Shown here: piece after piece, positions 16,131 to 26,411 of the stretch
Numbering within the stretch: position 1 is the stretch's first letter
How the letters are laid out: each line of letters begins with the position of its first letter
Assembly: GCF_006716115.1 (NCBI RefSeq)
Contig: NZ_VFOO01000001.1
Span: 558,001-622,000 of the forward strand
DNA length: 64,000 nt
Reading direction: 5' to 3'
Origin: Subtercola boreus
Lineage (GTDB): Bacteria > Actinomycetota > Actinomycetes > Actinomycetales > Microbacteriaceae
Notes under the pieces: generated by a model
What the model saw: the letters and a program-made list of their open reading frames with translations, nothing else
Told to the model about the DNA's origin: nothing
The model's database searches: none
Program-made: the position numbers and the translations under genes

Positions 16131-16660
16131 CAACGCCCCCGTTCGACGCTCCCACCCAGCTCGACATCCAGACCGTCTCGAACCAGCTCGGCAGGCAGGC
16201 GCGGAACGTGCTCGGTATCGCCGCGCGCTGCATCTGTGGCGCGCCGACCGTCGTCGCCACCGCCCCACGCCTCGACGACGGAACCCCGTTCCCCACGATG
16301 TACTACCTGAGCCACCCGGCCGCGACAGCCGCCATGTCCGACCTCGAGGCCGCCCAGATCATGCCCTCCCTCCAGCAACTCGTCGAATCCGACGAAGCGG
16401 TCGGTGCCGCGTACCTCGCCGCGCACGAGCAGTACCTCGCCGACCGGGAGAGCATTGCCGTCGTCGAGGAGATCGCCAACATCTCGGCCGGAGGGATGCC
16501 CGTGCGGGTCAAATGCCTGCACGCCCTCGCCGCGCACGCCCTCGCGGCGGGCCCCGGGGTGAACCCGATCGGCGATCTCGCCCTGGCGCGGGGGGACTGG
16601 TCGCCACTCGTCTGCGAGTGCAAGGAGTATCCTGTAGATGCGGCCAGCGCAGGCCATTGA
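16127..16660 (+). CDS. DUF501 family protein
   Basis: A 177-residue soluble protein that matches the DUF501 family, usually found beside eno and divIC in actinobacteria; its biochemical role is not established. It contains ARCICGAPTVVATAPRLDDG, PTMYYLSHPAATAAMSDLEA, an AAHEQYLADRE helix, and a C-terminal VKCLHALAAHALA..NPIGD region with several conserved Cys/His residues. Translation is coupled to the divIC-like gene by an ATGA overlap. In many relatives an exopolyphosphatase-type gene comes next, but here an NADH dehydrogenase does. Confidence 0.88.
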   Translation: MTTPPFDAPTQLDIQTVSNQLGRQARNVLGIAARCICGAPTVVATAPRLDDGTPFPTMYYLSHPAATAAMSDLEAAQIMPSLQQLVESDEAVGAAYLAAHEQYLADRESIAVVEEIANISAGGMPVRVKCLHALAAHALAAGPGVNPIGDLALARGDWSPLVCECKEYPVDAASAGH

Positions 16661-16756
16661 ACAACTCCGTGGCACACCAGTGCGATAACTCGTTCTGGCC
16701 CGTGGTGCGGAGGTAGTAGCCTGTTGGCTTGTACCTGACCGAGGAGAACCTTTACT

Positions 16757-18178
16757 GTGCCGAAAATCTTGATCGTCGGCGGCGGCTACGCCGGCTTCTA
16801 CACCGCCTGGAAGCTCGAGAAGTGGTTGCGGAACGGCGAGGCTGAGGTCACCGTCGTCGACCCGCTGCCGTACATGACGTACCAGCCCTTCCTGCCCGAG
16901 ATCGCATCCGGCTCGATCGAGCCCCGCCACGCGGTCGTCGCGCTCCGTCGCCACCTCAAGAAGACGACGATCATCGCCGGCAAGGTCGAGAAGATCACCC
17001 ACGCCGACAAGACCGTCACGATCCACCCGAACATCGGCGAGGACTACGAGGTCGAGTACGACACCATCGTCGTCACCGCCGGCTCGGTCTCGCGTACGTT
17101 CCCGATCCCGGGTGTCGCAGACGAGGCCATCGGTCTGAAGACGATCGAGGAGGCCGTGGCCATCCGCGACCGCATCCTCACCAACTTCGACAAGGCTTCG
17201 CAGCTGCCCGAGGGACCCGAGCGCGACCGCCTGCTGACCTTCGTCGTCGTCGGCGGCGGCTTCGCCGGCATCGAGATCTTCGCCGAGATTCGCTCCTTCG
17301 CCAGCGCCCTGCTCGACAGCTATCCCGAGCTCGCCTTCGAGGACACCCACTTCCACCTGATCGAGGCCATGGGCCGCATCATGCCCGAGGTCTCGCTGAA
17401 GACCGCCGGCTGGGTCATCAAGAACCTCGCCGAGCGTGGCGCCCAGATCCACCTCGACACCCAGCTGAAATCCGCTGTCGGCGGTGTCGTCGAGCTGTCG
17501 ACCGGTGAGAGCTTCGAGTCCGACACCATCGTCTGGACGGCCGGCGTCATGGCCAGCCCGATGCTGAAGAACACCGACCTCCCCATCGAGGAGCGCGGCC
17601 GCCTGCGCCTGCAGGCCGACCTCCGTGTCGTCGGTGACGACGGCATCGTTCCCGACGCCTGGGGTGCCGGCGACGTCTCGGCCGTGCCCGACCTCTCCGG
17701 TGGTGGTGTGGGCGGGTTCTGCGTACCGAATGCCCAGCACGCCGTGCGCCAGGGCAAGCAGCTCGCGAAGAACATCGTCGCCGAGCTCCGTGGTGAAGAC
17801 GTCAAGGACTACTTCCACAAGAACGCTGGCGCGGTCGCCGGCCTCGGCCTCGGCGTCGGCGCTTTCCAGTCGGGCAAGATCGGTATCACCGGCTTCCCCG
17901 CCTGGGTCATGCACCGTGGCTACCACGGTCTCGCCATGCCGAGCTGGGAGCGCAAGATCCGCGTCATCGGCAACTGGGCGTTCAACCTCGTGCTCGGCCG
18001 CGACATCGCCTCGCTCGAGGCCCGGGTGCACCCGCGCGCAGCGTTCGAGGAGTTCGCGTCCCGTCCCCGTCCGGCTGCTCCCGCCGCTGCGGCGCCCGCC
18101 GCTCCTGCTGTCGGTGCTGGCACCCCAGGCCCCGCCGGTGCTCCGGTGCCGGTCGGTGGAGCGGTCTCGAAAGAGTAA
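16757..18178 (+). CDS. ndh: type II NADH:quinone oxidoreductase
   Basis: A 473-residue single-subunit flavoprotein that passes electrons from NADH to the quinone pool without pumping protons. It has two Rossmann motifs, ILIVGGGYAGFYTAWKLE at the N-terminus for FAD and FVVVGGGFAGIEIFAEI at about 165 for NADH, then WGAGDVSAVPDLSGGGVGGF and the quinone-site-like PNAQHAVRQGKQLAKNI. A C-terminal amphipathic segment (about 400-435) is followed by an Ala/Pro-rich 40-residue tail of unknown purpose. GTG 16757 has GAGGAGA nine bases upstream. The tRNA gene starts ten bases after its stop. Confidence 0.9.
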   Translation: MPKILIVGGGYAGFYTAWKLEKWLRNGEAEVTVVDPLPYMTYQPFLPEIASGSIEPRHAVVALRRHLKKTTIIAGKVEKITHADKTVTIHPNIGEDYEVEYDTIVVTAGSVSRTFPIPGVADEAIGLKTIEEAVAIRDRILTNFDKASQLPEGPERDRLLTFVVVGGGFAGIEIFAEIRSFASALLDSYPELAFEDTHFHLIEAMGRIMPEVSLKTAGWVIKNLAERGAQIHLDTQLKSAVGGVVELSTGESFESDTIVWTAGVMASPMLKNTDLPIEERGRLRLQADLRVVGDDGIVPDAWGAGDVSAVPDLSGGGVGGFCVPNAQHAVRQGKQLAKNIVAELRGEDVKDYFHKNAGAVAGLGLGVGAFQSGKIGITGFPAWVMHRGYHGLAMPSWERKIRVIGNWAFNLVLGRDIASLEARVHPRAAFEEFASRPRPAAPAAAAPAAPAVGAGTPGPAGAPVPVGGAVSKE

Positions 18179-18188
18179 CCTCCTGGTC

Positions 18189-18262
18189 GCCCCCATAGCC
18201 CAATTGGCAGAGGCAGACGACTTAAAATCGTCGTAGTGAGGGTTCGAGTCCCTCTGGGGGTA
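18189..18262 (+). tRNA. tRNA-Leu (UAA anticodon) with a short variable loop
   Basis: The 74-nt sequence folds into a cloverleaf. The 7-bp acceptor stem (18189-18195 with 18255-18261) has a G1-U72 wobble, and the discriminator is A (18262). The D arm is a 3-bp GCC/GGC stem with a large loop, like that of bacterial tRNA-Leu. The anticodon stem GACGA/TCGTC carries loop CTTAAAA, giving anticodon UAA (codon UUA), and the T stem is GAGGG/CCCTC. Only five bases (GTAGT) separate the anticodon and T stems, whereas bacterial tRNA-Leu normally has a long variable arm. CCA is not encoded. D arm, A73 and anticodon all support leucine. Confidence 0.85.
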
Positions 18263-18346
18263 CTTCAGCCTTAACTTTGTCTTGCTGTGTCAACGGGAGA
18301 GTTGGGGCTATCGCCGGCGCGGATCGGGTTGCCGCGCGCGCCGCGC

Positions 18347-18589
18347 CTAGTGGCCCTCCCGCCGGAGCTCCGCCTCGAGCGGCGCATCCGACACGATCGT
18401 CACCGGCACGCCGGGGGTGATGAGAAGTTCGTAGGTCTGCGGGTTGCCCTCGAGGTCGGTGCAGAGGAATGCCGTCCACTCGGTGCGGCCCGCGGCGACG
18501 ATCGACTGGATCAGGTCGCGGACCGCGGTGTGCTCGTCGGCGTCAGCGATCACGATCTCGGTATTGCCGTACTGCAGAATCGAAGTCAT
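18347..18589 (-). CDS. hypothetical protein, 80 residues
   Basis: A small acidic soluble protein I do not recognise. It begins with MTSILQYGNTEIVIADADEH and continues with a helix (AVRDLIQSIVAAGRTEWTAF), followed by TYELLITPGVPVTIVSDAP. The ATG (complement 18587-18589) has a strong GAGGGGA ribosome site six bases upstream, and codon usage matches the neighbours, so it is probably real. It converges on the tRNA, 84 bp away. Its upstream region holds an 11-bp inverted repeat (arms about 18617-18627 and 18648-18658). Confidence 0.65.
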   Translation of the reverse strand: MTSILQYGNTEIVIADADEHTAVRDLIQSIVAAGRTEWTAFLCTDLEGNPQTYELLITPGVPVTIVSDAPLEAELRREGH

Positions 18590-18786
18590 TCGGTTTCCCC
18601 TCGTCTTTTCGGCCGCCTGTGCCGGAGAAATCCTCAGGGAGGGATCTTCCGGCACAGGGGCGGCATCGCCATGTTGCCGAAGGTTCCGCTCAGGGAGCGG
18701 AACACGTCAGGCAACGGATGGGCGTCGACGGAGCGCTAGGAACACTCTTCAACCGGCAGCACAATTCGGTAGCTGCGCATTCAAGC

Positions 18787-18802
18787 TAACCCGTTCGGGT
18801 TA
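18787..18802. promoter_or_regulatory. perfect 16-bp palindrome, candidate operator
   Basis: TAACCCGTTCGGGTTA is a perfect palindrome in the divergent region between the 80-residue protein gene and the APC permease. It is relatively AT-richer than its surroundings and fits a dimeric repressor site; no candidate repressor is assigned. Confidence 0.5.
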
Positions 18803-18831
18803 ACCCCTGCAAAGGCCCAGTTGTGGGGGCA

Positions 18832-18859
18832 GACGGGGAACGCCGCCGACGTCCCCGTC
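18832..18859 (+). promoter_or_regulatory. hairpin upstream of the leader ORF
   Basis: GACGGGGA (18832-18839) and TCCCCGTC (18852-18859) form an 8-bp stem with a 12-nt loop, seven bases before the GAGGA ribosome site of the 19-codon ORF. It may influence access to that site. Confidence 0.45.
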
Positions 18860-18875
18860 CAACACGAGGACGAAC

Positions 18876-18935
18876 ATGACGTCTAAAACGATGACCCGAG
18901 CAGCACCGATTGTTCACCTGGGCGCGCGAGAGTAG
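18876..18935 (+). CDS. 19-residue leader ORF upstream of APC permease
   Basis: ATG 18876 has a GAGGA ribosome site five bases upstream and encodes MTSKTMTRAAPIVHLGARE before a TAG. The stop is four bases before the ATG of the permease, which has only a weak ribosome site of its own (GTAGGCGG overlapping the stop). That geometry suggests translational coupling or a regulatory leader peptide. It could be a chance short frame; codon usage over 19 codons is not decisive. Confidence 0.5.
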   Translation: MTSKTMTRAAPIVHLGARE

Positions 18936-18939
18936 GCGG

Positions 18940-20232
18940 ATGACGGCACCACCCACCCTCGCGCGAAAGCTCGGCACCGTCGACGCGGTGAGCATCGGCC
19001 TCGGTTCGATGATCGGGGCCGGCATCTTCGCCGCGTTCGCCCCGGCCTCGTCCGTCGCGGGTGCTGGGCTGCTCGTGGGGCTGCTGGTCGCCGGGATCGT
19101 CGCCTTCTGCAACGCGACGTCATCGGCGCAGCTCGCCGCGCAGTATCCGACGTCGGGTGGCAGCTACGTCTACGGCCGGGAACGGCTGGGGGAGTGGCCC
19201 GGGTTCCTGGCGGGGTGGAGCTTCGTGGTCGGCAAGACGGCCAGCTGCGCGGCGATGGCGCTCACGTTCGCCGCGTATGCGGCACCGGCCGGCTGGGAGA
19301 AGCCCGTCGCGGTGCTGGCTGTGCTCGCTCTCGCAGCCGTCAACCTCGTCGGGGTCACCCGAACGGCAGCGCTGACGCGCGTGATCGTGGCATTCGTGCT
19401 GCTGGTGCTGGCCGTTGTCGTGATCTCGGCGGTGGCGGGCCGGGGGCCGCTGGTTCTGGATGCTCGACCCGACTTGTTCGAGCACGGCTGGTACGGCATC
19501 CTGCAGTCCGGCGGGCTGCTCTTCTTCGCCTTCGCGGGCTACGCGCGCATCGCGACGATGGGGGAGGAAGTGAAGGAGCCGCAACGCACGATCCCACGCG
19601 CCATCCTCGTCGCCCTGGCGGCGACCTTCGTGGTCTACGCCGTTATCGCGCTGACGGTTCTCGCCGTGCTCGGCCCGGAACGGCTCGCCGCGAGCAGCGC
19701 ACCGCTCGCCGATGTCGTGGCGGCGGGAGGGTGGAGCTGGGCTTCGCCGCTCGTGCGGATCGGTGCGGCCGCCGCGGCCCTCGGTGCGCTGCTGGCGCTC
19801 ATCGCGGGAATCGGACGCACGAGCCTCGCGATGGCCCGCAACGACGATCTGCCCCGCTGGCTTGCGGCCGTGCATCCGAGGCGCCGGGTGCCGCAGCACG
19901 CGGAGATCGCGCTGGCCGTGGTCGTGTGTGTGCTGGTGCTGAGTGTAGACCTCCGATCAGCGATCGGTTTCTCGTCGTTCGGCGTGCTGCTCTACTACGT
20001 TGTCGCGAATGCTGCCGCCTTCACGCAGGGCGCGGCGGATCGGCGCTACCCGCGAGCGCTCCAGGTTGTCGGAGTGCTCGGTTGCCTCGTTCTGGTCGCG
20101 ACGCTGCCGCTGCCGGCTGTGCTCGTGGGGCTGGGTGTGCTGGTGGTGGGGATCGGGTACCGGATCGTGCGGTTGCGCACCGCGGTCAGCGCGAAGCGGC
20201 CGCCTTCTCCGCCAGGTAGTCGTCCATCGTGA
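18940..20232 (+). CDS. APC-family amino acid permease
   Basis: A 430-residue permease with about twelve helices. The first helix has VSIGLGSMIGAGIFAAFAPA, with the unwound GSMIGAGIF substrate motif of the APC superfamily, and YPTSGGSYVYGRERLGEWPG and GYARIATMGEEVKEPQRTIP are typical downstream segments. It probably imports or exchanges amino acids or polyamines. ATG 18940 is in frame with an earlier TTG (18910) that lies inside the leader ORF. Its last 47 bases overlap the convergent MarR gene. Confidence 0.88.
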   Translation: MTAPPTLARKLGTVDAVSIGLGSMIGAGIFAAFAPASSVAGAGLLVGLLVAGIVAFCNATSSAQLAAQYPTSGGSYVYGRERLGEWPGFLAGWSFVVGKTASCAAMALTFAAYAAPAGWEKPVAVLAVLALAAVNLVGVTRTAALTRVIVAFVLLVLAVVVISAVAGRGPLVLDARPDLFEHGWYGILQSGGLLFFAFAGYARIATMGEEVKEPQRTIPRAILVALAATFVVYAVIALTVLAVLGPERLAASSAPLADVVAAGGWSWASPLVRIGAAAAALGALLALIAGIGRTSLAMARNDDLPRWLAAVHPRRRVPQHAEIALAVVVCVLVLSVDLRSAIGFSSFGVLLYYVVANAAAFTQGAADRRYPRALQVVGVLGCLVLVATLPLPAVLVGLGVLVVGIGYRIVRLRTAVSAKRPPSPPGSRPS

Positions 20233-20674
20233 CGGCGACGTCGCTGAGGAACCGCTCGAACTCCGCCAGAACCTCGGGGGAGTAGCGATCCATGACCGTG
20301 CCGAGGCGTTCGGCGAGCGGGTCGAAGAAGCCGTCGATCAGTTCTTCGACTCCGTCGGTCGAGTGCAGGGTGACGATGCGCCGGTCGGCGTTGTCGCGCG
20401 CGCGGCGGATGTGCCCGGCGTCTTCGAGCCGGTTGAGGAGCGAGGATGTCGCGCCCCCGGTCAGCCCGACGCGGTGGCTGAGCTGGGTCTGGGTGAGGGG
20501 CGCACCGGCGTCCTGTGCGGCGAGAATGTGTACCAGCGCGTTGGCGTCGGTGGTGTGGAGGCCGGCGGAGAGCCCGAGCTGGCGGCCCATGTCGCTGAAC
20601 GCTGTTCCGTGCATCCGGAGCGCTGTGAGCAGCCGGTCGTGCTGGGCGTTCGGACCGGACGGCGATTCCGGCAT
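20186..20674 (-). CDS. MarR-family transcriptional regulator
   Basis: A 162-residue MarR protein: winged helix around LTQTQLSHRVGLTGGATSSL and LNRLEDAGHIRRARDNADRR, flanked by dimerisation helices. The ATG has a GAGGAGG ribosome site five bases upstream. It is divergent from the FAD monooxygenase gene, and the 104-bp spacer carries three evenly spaced TTTGAT-like repeats, so it likely controls that enzyme and itself. It overlaps the APC permease tail to tail by 47 bp. Confidence 0.9.
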   Translation of the reverse strand: MPESPSGPNAQHDRLLTALRMHGTAFSDMGRQLGLSAGLHTTDANALVHILAAQDAGAPLTQTQLSHRVGLTGGATSSLLNRLEDAGHIRRARDNADRRIVTLHSTDGVEELIDGFFDPLAERLGTVMDRYSPEVLAEFERFLSDVAVTMDDYLAEKAAASR

Positions 20675-20713
20675 GGCGACCTCCTCGTGTCAACCCCAGT
20701 CTACGGGTATTCG

Positions 20714-20755
20714 TTTGATTGTCACTTCATTTGATCATGGGTTAGATTGATCATG
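20714..20755. promoter_or_regulatory. three 16-bp-spaced repeats, probable MarR operator
   Basis: TTTGATTG (20714), TTTGATCA (20730) and ATTGATCA (20746) recur at exactly 16-bp intervals; the last two extend to TGATCATG and contain the palindrome TGATCA. The array fills the intergenic region between the divergent MarR and FAD monooxygenase genes, just before the AAGGGG ribosome site of the latter. Confidence 0.65.
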
Positions 20756-20778
20756 TAACTATTTTGAAGGGGCCCATC

Positions 20779-22032
<1,254 letters not shown>

Positions 22033-22060
22033 CGCCCCGTCGCTGAGGGCTCGCCCCGGG

Positions 22061-23530
22061 TCAGGCGGCCGCCGATTCCAGCACGTGTTCGGCGCGCTCG
22101 GGGCTGCCCGCGGCGAGACCGCGGTCGATCGCCCGGCGGGATGCGAGCCAGATGACGACGCCGAGGAGGAAGACGAGCCCCTCGGAGACGGTCAGCGACC
22201 AGATGATGCCGGCGAGACCGAACCAGAGGTTGCCGAGCAGCACGATGGGGATGAACAGCACGCCCTGCGCCAGGGACATGACGATGGCGGGCACCGAGCG
22301 CCCGGTCGCCTGGAAGAGCGAGGTCAGCAGACCGGTGAAACCGTTCACGATCATCGCGACGAGCTGGGCGGTGAGGATGGTGACACCGATGGCCAGCACG
22401 GAGGGGTCGGAGACGAACGCTGAGAAGACCTGGTCGCGGAACACGAAGACCGAAGCGGCCGAGAGGAGCACGATGCCGCCGACGGTGACCGCCGAGACCC
22501 GGAGGGCCGACCGGAGCCTGGCTCGGTCGCCTTTGCCGTAGGAGTAAGCGAGCAGCGGCAGTACGCCGAGGGTGACGCCCATGACGAGGAACTCCGGCAC
22601 CTGGGCGATGCGCACGGCGACGCCCATCGCGGCGAGGGCGCTGTCGCCGTAGGCCACCGCGAGGTTGTTCAGCACCAGGGAGGTGACGATCAGGAAGGCC
22701 GACTGCAGAAGCTCGCCGACACCCACGCCGAAGACCGGCTTCAGCACGGCGGGCGACAGGGTGAACCAGCGTGGCGCGAGGCTCACGTGTTCGCTGTGGC
22801 GCTGCAGCCAGACGATGAAGTAGACGACGACTCCGAGGTTCGAGAGCCCCATCGCGAGTGCCGCTCCGCCGACGCCCCAGTGCAGCACCAGGATGAACAG
22901 CACGTCGAAGACGACGTTCGCGATGGTGGACGCGATGAGCCCGATCATCACCTGCCGCGCCGCACCCTCCGCCCGCACGATCTGTTCCAGGCAGAAGGCG
23001 GCGGCGAGCACCGGCACGAAGCCGAGCATGACGGCCACGTAGGCGCTCGTCGCGGGCACCGCGGCGGCATCCGCCCCGAGAAGCGACACGAGCGGACCGA
23101 GCAGCAGCAGTCCGAGACCGCCGAGGATGGCGCCCGTCACGATGGCCCCCCACAGGGCGAAGGAGGAGACGTGCTTGATCTGGTCGGCCTGGCCTGAGTC
23201 GGTCTCGGCGGCGCCGAACAGCCTCGAGATGAGGGCGCCGCCGCCGACGCCGAACACGCCGCCGACCGCCATGACCAGGCCGAGGAGGGGTGTGCCGAAC
23301 GTGATGGCGGCGAGCAGGGTGGCGTCGTGCAGCGAGCCGATGAAGCCCGCGTTGACGACGTTGTAGACGGCGCCCACGATCATGGCGGCGGCCATCGGCA
23401 CGCAGAGGTGCACCAGGGCGCGCACGATCGGTGCGGCGGAGAGGTACCAGCGATTGGTGCCGACGGCGCCTACCCGGGGCGGGAGTGTGACGGGGGGAGT
23501 GGAGGGTGGGGTGGAGGGTGAGGTGCTCAT
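22061..23530 (-). CDS. MATE-family efflux transporter
   Basis: A 489-residue multidrug and toxic compound extrusion protein with two six-helix bundles. It includes LVHLCVPMAAAMIVGAVYNV, GVGGGALISRLFGA, the mid-protein FCLEQIVRAEGAARQVMIG, and the symmetrical second-half segment LVAMIVNGFTGLLTSLFQAT. A Ser/Thr/Pro-rich cytoplasmic N-terminus precedes helix 1. The ATG has a ribosome site (AAAGGAGCAG). It lies 145 bp downstream of a MarR gene on the same strand, which probably controls it. Confidence 0.9.
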   Translation of the reverse strand: MSTSPSTPPSTPPVTLPPRVGAVGTNRWYLSAAPIVRALVHLCVPMAAAMIVGAVYNVVNAGFIGSLHDATLLAAITFGTPLLGLVMAVGGVFGVGGGALISRLFGAAETDSGQADQIKHVSSFALWGAIVTGAILGGLGLLLLGPLVSLLGADAAAVPATSAYVAVMLGFVPVLAAAFCLEQIVRAEGAARQVMIGLIASTIANVVFDVLFILVLHWGVGGAALAMGLSNLGVVVYFIVWLQRHSEHVSLAPRWFTLSPAVLKPVFGVGVGELLQSAFLIVTSLVLNNLAVAYGDSALAAMGVAVRIAQVPEFLVMGVTLGVLPLLAYSYGKGDRARLRSALRVSAVTVGGIVLLSAASVFVFRDQVFSAFVSDPSVLAIGVTILTAQLVAMIVNGFTGLLTSLFQATGRSVPAIVMSLAQGVLFIPIVLLGNLWFGLAGIIWSLTVSEGLVFLLGVVIWLASRRAIDRGLAAGSPERAEHVLESAAA

Positions 23531-23675
23531 GACTGCTCCTTTCCGGGCAGGTTCGAGCGCGCGCCGACGAACGCCGGCACGGCGAGGAGAGGTGGGGGAC
23601 TCTGGATGCCCGCCCGGGCTCGATGGTCAGGGTGGGGTGGTGCGGGGATTGGTCCGGCGGGGCGCTACCGGGGCG

Positions 23676-24113
23676 TTATCGCGTGGGTTGCGGCAACACG
23701 GAGGTCACCTTCGTCAGGAGGTCGTGCAGCGTGGCCCGCTCCGCTGCGCTGAGCGGCGCGAGGATGGTGTCGTCGGCGGCCTCCATGGCGGAGTCGAAGC
23801 CGGCGATGAGTTCGGCGCCGGCGGGCGTGGCGTAGACGCGTTTGCTGCGCTCGTTCCCGCCCTCCGTGCGGCGTTCGATGAGGCCTCGGCGTTCGAGCCC
23901 CTGCAGGAGGCTCGACACGCTGGCGGCGCTGGTGCGGGTGAGTGCGGCGATGTCGCGCTGGATGGATCCGGGGTTCTGTTCGAGGAAACCGAGGGCGAAT
24001 GCCTGCTCATGGCTCAGCTCACGCTCGCGGATCCAGTCCTCGCCGACTTTGCGCTGTGCCCAGCCGATCCAGCGCAGCAGTGAGAGCGTGCTGGTGAATT
24101 CCGGTTCCTTCAT
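23676..24113 (-). CDS. MarR-family transcriptional regulator
   Basis: A 145-residue regulator with GSIQRDIAALTRTSAASVSS as recognition region and LLQGLERRGLIERRTEGGNE as wing; it carries the conserved basic residues that contact DNA. ATG 24113 is chosen over an earlier frame start because a TAGAGT box lies seven bases upstream on the coding strand and overlaps an operator-like repeat. It precedes the MATE exporter on the same strand and is divergent from the HSL esterase gene. Confidence 0.9.
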   Translation of the reverse strand: MKEPEFTSTLSLLRWIGWAQRKVGEDWIRERELSHEQAFALGFLEQNPGSIQRDIAALTRTSAASVSSLLQGLERRGLIERRTEGGNERSKRVYATPAGAELIAGFDSAMEAADDTILAPLSAAERATLHDLLTKVTSVLPQPTR

Positions 24114-24120
24114 GATCAGA

Positions 24121-24146
24121 ACTCTAACTGTTAGCCTTCTAACTGT
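24121..24146. promoter_or_regulatory. direct repeats and palindrome, probable MarR operator with -10 box
   Basis: TCTAACTGT occurs at 24123-24131 and again at 24138-24146. The first copy is part of the palindrome TAAC-T-GTTA (24125-24133), and ACTCTA (24121-24126) is the complement of the gene's TAGAGT -10 box. A bound repressor would cover the promoter of the MarR gene and could also affect the divergent esterase gene. Confidence 0.65.
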
Positions 24147-24275
24147 CAAGGGAACCGCCAGCTGGCGCGCGAAACGGCCTGATCAGTCACGACTGGCGGT
24201 CGCGAGAGGCGGGAGCGCCCGACAGAATGAAGACGAAGGCACAACGCCGTGCCCCACGGCCCAGGGAGACCAACC

Positions 24276-25259
24276 ATGACATCCACCGATTCTGTCCGCG
24301 AGTTCGCTCGCCCGCCCTACGACCCGGAGCTCGCTGCAGTGCTCGCCGTGCTCGGCGCACAGATGCCGCCGACCGTGACCCCTGGGATGATCGCCCCGAT
24401 GCGCTCGGCGAGCGTCACACCGCCGATCGAGGAGTTGCTGGCCGGCCGCGCGGTGACCCACGAGGAGCGCAGCGTGCCCGGACCCGAGGGGGCTCCGGAG
24501 ATCATCCTGAGCATCTTCCGTCGCACGGATCACGTGGCGGGAGGCCCGGGGATCTACAACGTGCACGGTGGCGGCATGATCATCGGCGACCGCTTCACCG
24601 GCCTCGAACCGCTGCTGGACTGGGTCGAGCAGTTCGATGCCGTGCTGGTGAGCGTCGAGTACCGGCTCGCTCCCGAGTCCCCCGATCCTGCCCTCGTCGA
24701 CGACTGCTACGCCGGGCTGGTCTGGACCGCGGAGCACGCCGACGAGCTCGGCTTCAACGCCGACCGACTGGTCATCTCGGGAGGAAGCGCTGGCGGCGGC
24801 ATCGCCGCGGGAGTCACCCTGATGGCCCGGGACAAGGGCGGTCCCGCGCTGATCGGCTCCCTGCTGATGTACCCGATGCTGGATGACCGGAATGAAACGG
24901 TTTCGAGCCACCAGTTCGTCGGCATCGGCGTCTGGGACCGGGGCAGCAACGACACCGGCTGGGATGCTCTCCTGGGCGATCGCCGCGGGACGGAGAACGT
25001 GTCCATCTACGCGGCTCCTGCTCGCGCGACCGACCTCTCCGGTCTTCCGCCCACGTTCATCGATGTCGGCTCGGCTGAGGTCTTCCGCGACGAGGACGTG
25101 GCGTATGCGTCGAAGATCTGGGCCGACGGTGGCATCTGCGAGCTGCATGTGACCCCGGGGGTGTTCCACGGGGCTGAGCTGATGGCGCCCGCGGCTGCCC
25201 TGTCGACCGCCGTCGCAGAGAACAGGACCCGCTGGTTGCGGCGTATCCTCGGCGTCTGA
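24276..25259 (+). CDS. alpha/beta hydrolase, hormone-sensitive lipase (HSL) family esterase
   Basis: A 327-residue esterase. The oxyanion-hole motif HGGG is at residues 97-100, the nucleophile is S171 in SGGSAGGG, the acid is probably E268 or D272 in DVGSAEVFRDED, and the His is H298 in GVFHGAE. These are hallmarks of the HSL (type IV) lipases acting on short-chain esters or carboxylate-modified natural compounds. ATG 24276 follows an AGGGAGA ribosome site, so the in-frame GTG at 24249 is rejected. It is divergent from the MarR gene. Confidence 0.88.
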   Translation: MTSTDSVREFARPPYDPELAAVLAVLGAQMPPTVTPGMIAPMRSASVTPPIEELLAGRAVTHEERSVPGPEGAPEIILSIFRRTDHVAGGPGIYNVHGGGMIIGDRFTGLEPLLDWVEQFDAVLVSVEYRLAPESPDPALVDDCYAGLVWTAEHADELGFNADRLVISGGSAGGGIAAGVTLMARDKGGPALIGSLLMYPMLDDRNETVSSHQFVGIGVWDRGSNDTGWDALLGDRRGTENVSIYAAPARATDLSGLPPTFIDVGSAEVFRDEDVAYASKIWADGGICELHVTPGVFHGAELMAPAAALSTAVAENRTRWLRRILGV

Positions 25260-25385
25260 CGGGTTGCGCGCCGGGCAGGCCTCGGACGTTCTCGTCCGAC
25301 CTGTCCTGCCTGGGTTAGGGTGGGGGCAGACAGCAGCGCGCCGTCCTGCGACTCTCCGGCCGGCGCGCACCTCGCAGAGTCGTGA

Positions 25386-26411
25386 GTGGATCTCCAGAAC
25401 ATGCAGGAACTAGTGGGACGGATCACCGCCCTCGATCCGGTGGCGAGCGACAGCCTGCGGGTGATCTCCTACTTCGACACGCTGGTGGAGGGGCATGCGT
25501 CGGCCGAGGCGCTCCTCCGCGCCGCCAGCGTGCTCACGGGGTGCGGGGTCGGCTTTGTTGCAGAGGAGACGGTGATGCGTGTCGACAGCGCCGGTGCGCG
25601 CTCGGCGGATCCCGGCGTTCCGGAGGGTGGCCGTTGGCCCTCCCACGCGGTCGGTGAGGGCTGGTACGCGTGGATCGAACGGAGCGGGAGCGCTCACGTG
25701 AACGACGCGATGGTGCTGGAGCGACTGTCGTTCGGCTTGCGGATCTCGCTGGAACGCACCCATCCGGTCGCCATTGCCCGCCGGAACCTGGAGATCCTCA
25801 TCGATGCGGCCGAGAGTCCCGACGCCCGGGCGGCAGCGGCTCGCCGCCTGAGGGTCGACACCGGCCTGCTGCGACTGGTGGCGGCCCCGGCCGCCGACTC
25901 TGGAGCCGAGCCGGGTGCCGGCAGCGTTGTGGTCGACACGCTTGTCGGCCGGGTGCGGGCGAGGATCGTTCGCGAAGGCGCGGGTGCGCCTCTCGGCCGC
26001 CTCGGTCTCGGACTCCTTCTCCCGGCGACCGATGCGCCGCGGTCGTGGCAGACGGCGCTCCTGGCGCTCCGTCTGTCCACGGAGGCCGAACCGGTCATCG
26101 ACGCCAGCGCCCTCGGCGGCATGCTTCTGCTCGCCGAAGCAGCCGAGACCTCATCCCATCCGCAGCCCGACGTCGAGGCGATCGATCGGCTGGTGCAGGA
26201 TGACCCACGGAACCTCGCGAACCTCGAACTCCTCGTGCGTGCGGAGAGCGTCCGCGCGGCGGCGGCCTCGACAGGGGTGCACCACTCGACGATGCAGGCC
26301 CGCGTGTCCGAGCTCAGCGAGCGACTCGGCTTCGATGTGCGTTCTTCAGAAGGCCGGGTACGGCTGTCGCTGGCGCTCCGCCTCCACCACCTTGCCACGA
26401 ATCGGTTCTGA
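25386..26411 (+). CDS. PucR-like helix-turn-helix regulator
   Basis: A 341-residue protein with a variable N-terminal sensor region and a C-terminal segment (about 262-335) in which NLELLVRAESVRAAAASTGV and HHSTMQARVSELSERLGFDV resemble the PucR/CdaR-type HTH. No GAF or GGDEF signature is obvious. The start is uncertain: GTG 25386 has a CAGAGT box five bases upstream, ATG 25401 is an alternative, and neither has a good ribosome site. It follows the esterase gene by 126 bp and may regulate it; nothing in the sequence proves this. Confidence 0.7.
   Translation: MDLQNMQELVGRITALDPVASDSLRVISYFDTLVEGHASAEALLRAASVLTGCGVGFVAEETVMRVDSAGARSADPGVPEGGRWPSHAVGEGWYAWIERSGSAHVNDAMVLERLSFGLRISLERTHPVAIARRNLEILIDAAESPDARAAAARRLRVDTGLLRLVAAPAADSGAEPGAGSVVVDTLVGRVRARIVREGAGAPLGRLGLGLLLPATDAPRSWQTALLALRLSTEAEPVIDASALGGMLLLAEAAETSSHPQPDVEAIDRLVQDDPRNLANLELLVRAESVRAAAASTGVHHSTMQARVSELSERLGFDVRSSEGRVRLSLALRLHHLATNRF

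Follow-up and report, generated by a model that had tools for sequence, protein, structure and literature searches.

The short tRNA gene on the forward strand of the DNA analysed here (64,000 nucleotides of Subtercola boreus, hereafter the window) is in all likelihood an ordinary class I tRNA-Leu, charged by LeuRS and decoding UUA, which takes the place of the long-armed tRNA-Leu(UAA) in the Microbacteriaceae and in many other actinobacteria. By sequence reading, ARAGORN and Rfam it is intact and 74 nt long. ARAGORN prints it as tRNA-Leu(TAA) with its start at 18189, and the Rfam tRNA family RF00005 matches 18189-18262 over the whole model (positions 1-71 of 71) with 58.7 bits and an E-value of 3.9e-10, well above the gathering score of 29 and as a full-length member of that family. 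This is the sole RNA match at gathering level in the window, which holds this one tRNA gene. The features referred to below are the following.

16757..18178, + strand: ndh-type NAD(P)H dehydrogenase gene, the conserved neighbour (ORF; Pfam Pyr_redox_2; synteny).
18189..18262, + strand: tRNA-Leu(UAA), class I, 74 nt without an encoded CCA (ARAGORN; RF00005, 58.7 bits; check of the own genome; covariance model R1, 101.7 bits, the same sequence being part of the R1 training set).
18198..18214, + strand: leucine-type D arm, with a 3-bp stem GCC/GGC and an 11-nt loop CAATTGGCAGA that holds A14, A15, G18G19 and A20a (sequence).
18223..18225, + strand: anticodon TAA, which reads UUA (ARAGORN, sequence).
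18233..18237, + strand: variable loop GTAGT of 5 nt, with U48 at its 3' end (sequence, Rfam alignment).
18262, + strand: discriminator A73 (sequence).

The acceptor stem has 7 bp and the T arm is regular. A73 is followed by CTT, so that the CCA is not encoded and would be added after transcription. The gene combines a leucine anticodon with A73, as is expected of a bacterial tRNA-Leu, and all leucine core elements (A14, A15-U48, G18G19 and A20a) are present; the list of elements is that of the available text of PMC9976931, and the tRNA position numbers are our own assignment. The long variable arm of class II is absent, the loop counting five nucleotides. Judged from its sequence, the gene thus has the identity elements of a tRNA-Leu without belonging to class II. 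The earlier note on this DNA, which had described a tRNA-Leu(UAA) with a leucine-type D arm, A73 and a variable loop of five bases, is borne out by ARAGORN, RF00005 and the sequence alike.

The genome of S. boreus (4.21 Mb, 99.78% complete) contains 46 matches to RF00005, and the 45 outside the window were all typed with ARAGORN. Among the 46, the short gene is the sole one to read UUA with a UAA anticodon. The remaining tRNA-Leu genes are four in number (CAA, CAG, GAG and UAG), all of them long-armed and 82-88 nt as printed. As such, the whole-genome list of tRNA-Leu genes that had been proposed as a check returns no second, long-armed UAA isoacceptor among these matches. A gene-by-gene check of this kind covers the own genome, a relative (G015) and, in part, a further family genome (G088). 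One LeuRS frame lies above the curated cut-off, reaching 923 bits together with its neighbours. The A15-U48 pair is present in all five tRNA-Leu, and also in seven non-leucine tRNAs of the genome, so it is not leucine-specific. Furthermore, the D-loop string AATTGGCAGAG is common to the short tRNA-Leu, the tRNA-Lys(CTT) and the tRNA-Asn of this genome.

Conservation was followed along two lines, an exact search and a covariance model. A search with an exact 31-base core returned 51 contigs, namely six of Saccharopolyspora, one of Antrihabitans and 44 that we grouped as Microbacteriaceae-type (named genera, MAGs titled Microbacteriaceae, Actinomycetota or Micrococcales, and one 'Corynebacterium-like' strain); ARAGORN finds a short tRNA-Leu(taa) in all 51 loci, five of which repeat loci of the family sample (the pair L074/L108 being judged the same). 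The model, R1, was built from 22 sequences, and matches 97 of 100 sampled family genomes, or 90 of the 91 of high quality. All 30 top loci typed from the family sample, the own one included, are tRNA-Leu(taa) according to ARAGORN. The three genomes without an R1 match are G061 (75% complete), G065 (83%) and G088 (100%), and the last of these, a complete genome, has a long-armed UAA tRNA in place of the short form. The acceptor stem of this long-armed tRNA-Leu(UAA) (L216, G088:C1:574574-574655) reads GCCCCTA/TGGGGGT and resembles that of the short form, and a congener of G088, G005, has a match to the short model. A recent switch between short and long form is possible for this pair.

Within the 22-sequence alignment, 99.8% of the pair cells are standard, and changes on both sides are seen in 11 of 20 pairs, compared with a mean of 5.2 for shuffles and 1 to 3 for slid partners; the stems are evidently kept by compensatory changes. 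It should be noted that the exact 31-base core was the means by which 16 of the 22 rows had been found, so that the constancy of the core is partly there by construction; no such constraint lay on the acceptor and T stems. The caveat extends to A14, A15, G18G19 and A20a, which recur in the 22 aligned relatives. A73 is present in 22 of 22. A freer check is provided by 36 other short tRNA-Leu, which were selected for their model score in the phylum and family samples. Here, A14 and A73 are found in 36/36, A15 and U48 each in 35/36 and C2 in 32/36; the D-arm elements A14, A15, G18G19 and A20a are present in 35 or 36, and the sole exception to A15-U48 is a G15-C48 pair.

Outside the family, R1 matches 110 of 396 genomes of a phylum sample at an E-value of 1e-13 and 145 of 148 genomes of a class sample, and finds nothing in E. 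coli genomes at 1e-3. Because R1 also gives about 70 bits to tRNA-Lys and tRNA-Asn, the highest score among non-leucine tRNAs, and responds to short tRNA-Leu of other anticodons, the matches in these tallies, including the 97/100 of the family, are not all UAA. When 40 places from the phylum and family samples were typed, 36 were short tRNA-Leu (16 UAA, 17 CAA and 3 UAG) and 4 were tRNA-Lys or tRNA-Asn. A strict short-UAA pattern is found in 74 of the 148 class genomes; one printed match, the second in G608, does not resemble a tRNA. A strict long-UAA pattern is found in 12, among which are all 10 genomes of a family, f5, whose sequence is of the bldA type and in none of which the strict short pattern occurs; we take f5 to be Streptomyces-like. 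That no class genome has both forms holds for these strict patterns only. Neither pattern is matched in 62 genomes, including one (G376) with a short UAA gene typed by ARAGORN. A third pattern, applied to 12 of these 62, matches in 8, of which ARAGORN types six as long-armed and two as having short to intermediate loops. Long UAA forms should hence be commoner in the class than 12 of 148, and the class reads as a patchwork of the two forms.

In family f6, which is probably Mycobacteriaceae-like, several genomes carry short genes for both UAA and CAA, so that both of their UUR-reading tRNAs are short-armed (L167-L176). In one genome (G531, L434) the tRNA-Leu(UAA) measures 78 nt as printed, and its variable loop looks intermediate in length. 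Another contig (G503:C1; L437, L440-L442) has four long-loop matches of UAA type, one of which ARAGORN printed as tRNA-Leu.

The architecture that the earlier note took for something unusual is therefore not singular, given the 97 of 100 family genomes with an R1 match and the 74 of 148 class genomes with the strict short pattern. That note had itself named a short form that is standard throughout Actinobacteria as a reason to abandon its claim, and this is largely what these same counts amount to, but long forms occur as well, for instance in G088 and in family f5. Across the sampled genomes, the short tRNA-Leu(UAA) presents itself as a lineage-wide standard form, not a local freak.

The neighbourhood of the gene is conserved as well. 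The stop codon of ndh lies 10 nt before the tRNA start on the same strand. No sigma-70-like promoter was found in 16500-18600, which is a point against the preferred reading. The tRNA is probably co-transcribed with ndh and released from the common transcript by processing. In all 44 Microbacteriaceae-type loci of the exact-core set, an ndh match on the same strand ends at most 360 bp upstream of the tRNA. The six Saccharopolyspora loci have the end of their ndh match 0.36-1.56 kb upstream, and no ndh match was found at the Antrihabitans locus, in the 528 bp of upstream sequence that are present. In the family sample, where up to 1.5 kb upstream was covered, 24 of 30 loci, the own one included, have ndh on the same strand; two of the six others still hold an ndh match. 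The position after ndh, which had been put forward as the place to survey in related Microbacteriaceae, is thus occupied in most loci of both sets, which speaks for a chromosomal locus that is old and has mostly been inherited vertically.

So how would a tRNA of this shape acquire leucine? The anticodon alone is no safe guide to identity, because a human tRNA with a leucine anticodon and without a long arm was judged closer to tRNA-Met in the accessible part of PMC8450103. According to the available text of PMC9976931, leucylation in E. coli depends on A73, A15-U48, G18G19 and A20a while the long arm is dispensable, and human mitochondrial tRNA-Leu(UUR) is charged without one. We propose that the single bacterial-type LeuRS of S. 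boreus recognises the short tRNA through A73, the D-loop elements A14, G18G19 and A20a, and the A15-U48 pair. Leucylation would not require the missing long arm, and a tRNA without it should be left alone by SerRS. Leucylation and expression, which we infer, would make this a working tRNA, and it is almost certainly functional.

Could the gene instead be a decaying or silent copy, left behind by a mobile element? The same short form does occur on phages and on records labelled as plasmids, but the genome has no second UAA tRNA, the stems show compensatory changes, the ndh locus is conserved across genera, and no direct repeats of at least 18 nt involving the tRNA were found within 17000-26000 of the window. 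A pseudogene or mobile remnant was rejected on these grounds, and we consider it hardly conceivable. Scarcely better placed is the idea that UUA is reassigned, the tRNA carrying an amino acid other than leucine. The class I body could be taken in its favour, as could the string AATTGGCAGAG, shared with the tRNA-Lys(CTT) and tRNA-Asn that are the top-scoring non-leucine tRNAs of the model, whereas A73 and the leucine-type 11-nt D loop argue for leucine. The codons themselves lean the same way: of 20 TTA codons in ndh orthologues, 16 lie where leucine prevails (14 of 18 without repeats of the same contig) and 4 where other residues do. In the relative G015, with the codon masked, leucine prevails at 4 of 4 TTA sites of ndh, the one gene that had homologues under the cut-offs, and 3 of 4 TTA sites of its enolase are at leucine positions. 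A reassigned UUA codon finds no support in these genes and is very improbable.

A third alternative, that of a regulatory tRNA like bldA, whose limiting supply gates the translation of rare TTA-containing regulator genes, had been called conceivable in the earlier note, and we regard it as improbable, though less so than the previous two. UUA is indeed very rare, as had been supposed, with 16 of 124,679 codons and 16 of 12,687 leucine codons in 349 ORFs (464 kb of 4.21 Mb; ORFs in the own genome and in G015 were called by length and GC3 heuristics rather than a gene finder). Such rarity is expected, since the genome has 69% GC. The TTA codons fall in 14 ORFs, of which 12 were scanned against Pfam and 11 gave a match: GntR/FCD, ROK and LuxR-type response regulator genes, two transporters, an aminotransferase, GmrSD-type, NYN, YflT-domain and pectate-lyase-like proteins, and DNA polymerase III gamma/tau. 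Three regulators among the 12 would suit a regulatory role. In six of the 11 matched ORFs, the TTA precedes the domain, and the true start may come after it, GntR/FCD (TTA at codon 85, first domain from residue 107) being an example. In the other five (response regulator, ROK, aminotransferase, EamA transporter and DNA polymerase III gamma/tau) the TTA lies inside or after the Pfam match, and is therefore securely within the gene whatever its true start. This small set comprises two regulators and three others, and is not regulator-only. Within the 464 kb (of 4.21 Mb) covered by the heuristic ORFs, TTA is not confined to genes of auxiliary function, a statement that leans mainly on the gamma/tau frame, whose TTA is codon 700 of 923 and lies beyond the matched domains. 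Furthermore, G015, a relative with a genome of 0.93 Mb and 45% GC in a 60-kb sample, shares all five leucine anticodons, UAA being represented by the short form alone, and uses TTA throughout, in 40 of 40 sampled ORFs and with 197 TTA in 15,954 codons. The Streptomyces-like genomes, for their part, carry the long form instead. On the TTA use of the own genome and of G015, a bldA-like role was rejected as the main reading.

The occurrence of the short form on mobile elements deserves consideration in its own right. Matches were found in 150 records of a phage collection and in 7 of a plasmid collection. The five phage and six plasmid places that were typed are all short tRNA-Leu (UAA, UAG or CAA) except for one plasmid tRNA-Lys, which has a short Leu(CAG) in the same array. 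Of the plasmid records whose match was typed as short tRNA-Leu, three exceed 1 Mb and may be chromosome-like. Annotation as plain tRNA-Leu is routine for such genes, for example in phage records, and some of the phage matches listed are annotated as tRNA-Arg, tRNA-Met or tRNA-Asn. On viral contigs, there are at least 120 pattern loci, and among the loci listed 115 of 120 hold a tRNA-Leu shorter than 80 nt by ARAGORN. Three or more tRNAs are carried by 77 of the 120 viral loci listed (L242-L361), two actinobacterial plasmids (L098 and L102) have a short tRNA-Leu among other tRNAs, and on a Tsukamurella plasmid (L101) one lies beside a site-specific integrase gene. It is conceivable, if rather unlikely, that the short-armed tRNA-Leu make up a single mobile lineage, alike in the D arm and able to switch between leucine anticodons, which phages and plasmids carry and which has repeatedly displaced the long-armed tRNA-Leu(UAA) on actinobacterial chromosomes, perhaps by evading enzymes or toxins whose recognition depends on the long arm. 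If this were true, bldA-type control could exist only in lineages that retained the long form.

On the reading that we prefer, an ordinary class I tRNA-Leu, UUA appears to be decoded by such a tRNA in nearly all sampled genomes of the family and in parts of other families. tRNA-Leu is usually described as a class II tRNA with a long variable arm (PMC7609411 and PMC4033280, in the portions available), and in the accessible portions of the open-access literature we found no description of a lineage-wide short tRNA-Leu(UAA) in bacteria. It is in this that the remaining interest lies: a bacterial lineage that relies on class I tRNA-Leu, not found so described in that literature. A bacterial family of this kind would be a natural test of whether the long arm is dispensable for LeuRS and for the exclusion of SerRS. 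It also bears on Streptomyces, whose bldA is long-armed, in contrast to the short form of many relatives.

Comparison with known systems places the short gene among several partial likenesses. With the bldA tRNA-Leu(UAA) of Streptomyces, for which a regulatory role is described in the available text of PMC4932002, it shares the UAA anticodon and the reading of the rarest leucine codon of a high-GC actinobacterium, whereas bldA has a long variable arm and the D-arm string AGACACG, as in all 10 genomes of family f5. The class II tRNA-Leu of E. coli has A73, A15-U48, G18G19, A20a and C2-G71 in common with it (PMC9976931, available text), but bears a long arm where there is none here, the very arm that the same text reports as dispensable for leucylation. 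Human mitochondrial tRNA-Leu(UUR) is likewise a leucine tRNA without a long arm, recognised via A73 and A14 (PMC9976931, available text); it is mitochondrial, and the anticodon branch of its transcript is partly unfolded, whereas all stems pair well here. The phage and plasmid tRNA-Leu have the D-arm string TAGCCCAATTGG-AGAGGCA or one close to it and a short loop, but often lie among other tRNAs and carry UAG, CAA, CAG or GAG besides UAA. Finally, the tRNA-Leu(TAG) of the M. mucogenicum clade is, in the accessible text of PMC6582537, an actinobacterial leucine tRNA with a short variable loop too; unlike the gene described here, which is the sole chromosomal UAA gene, it has the anticodon TAG, lies in a tRNA cluster and exists besides a normal long isoacceptor.
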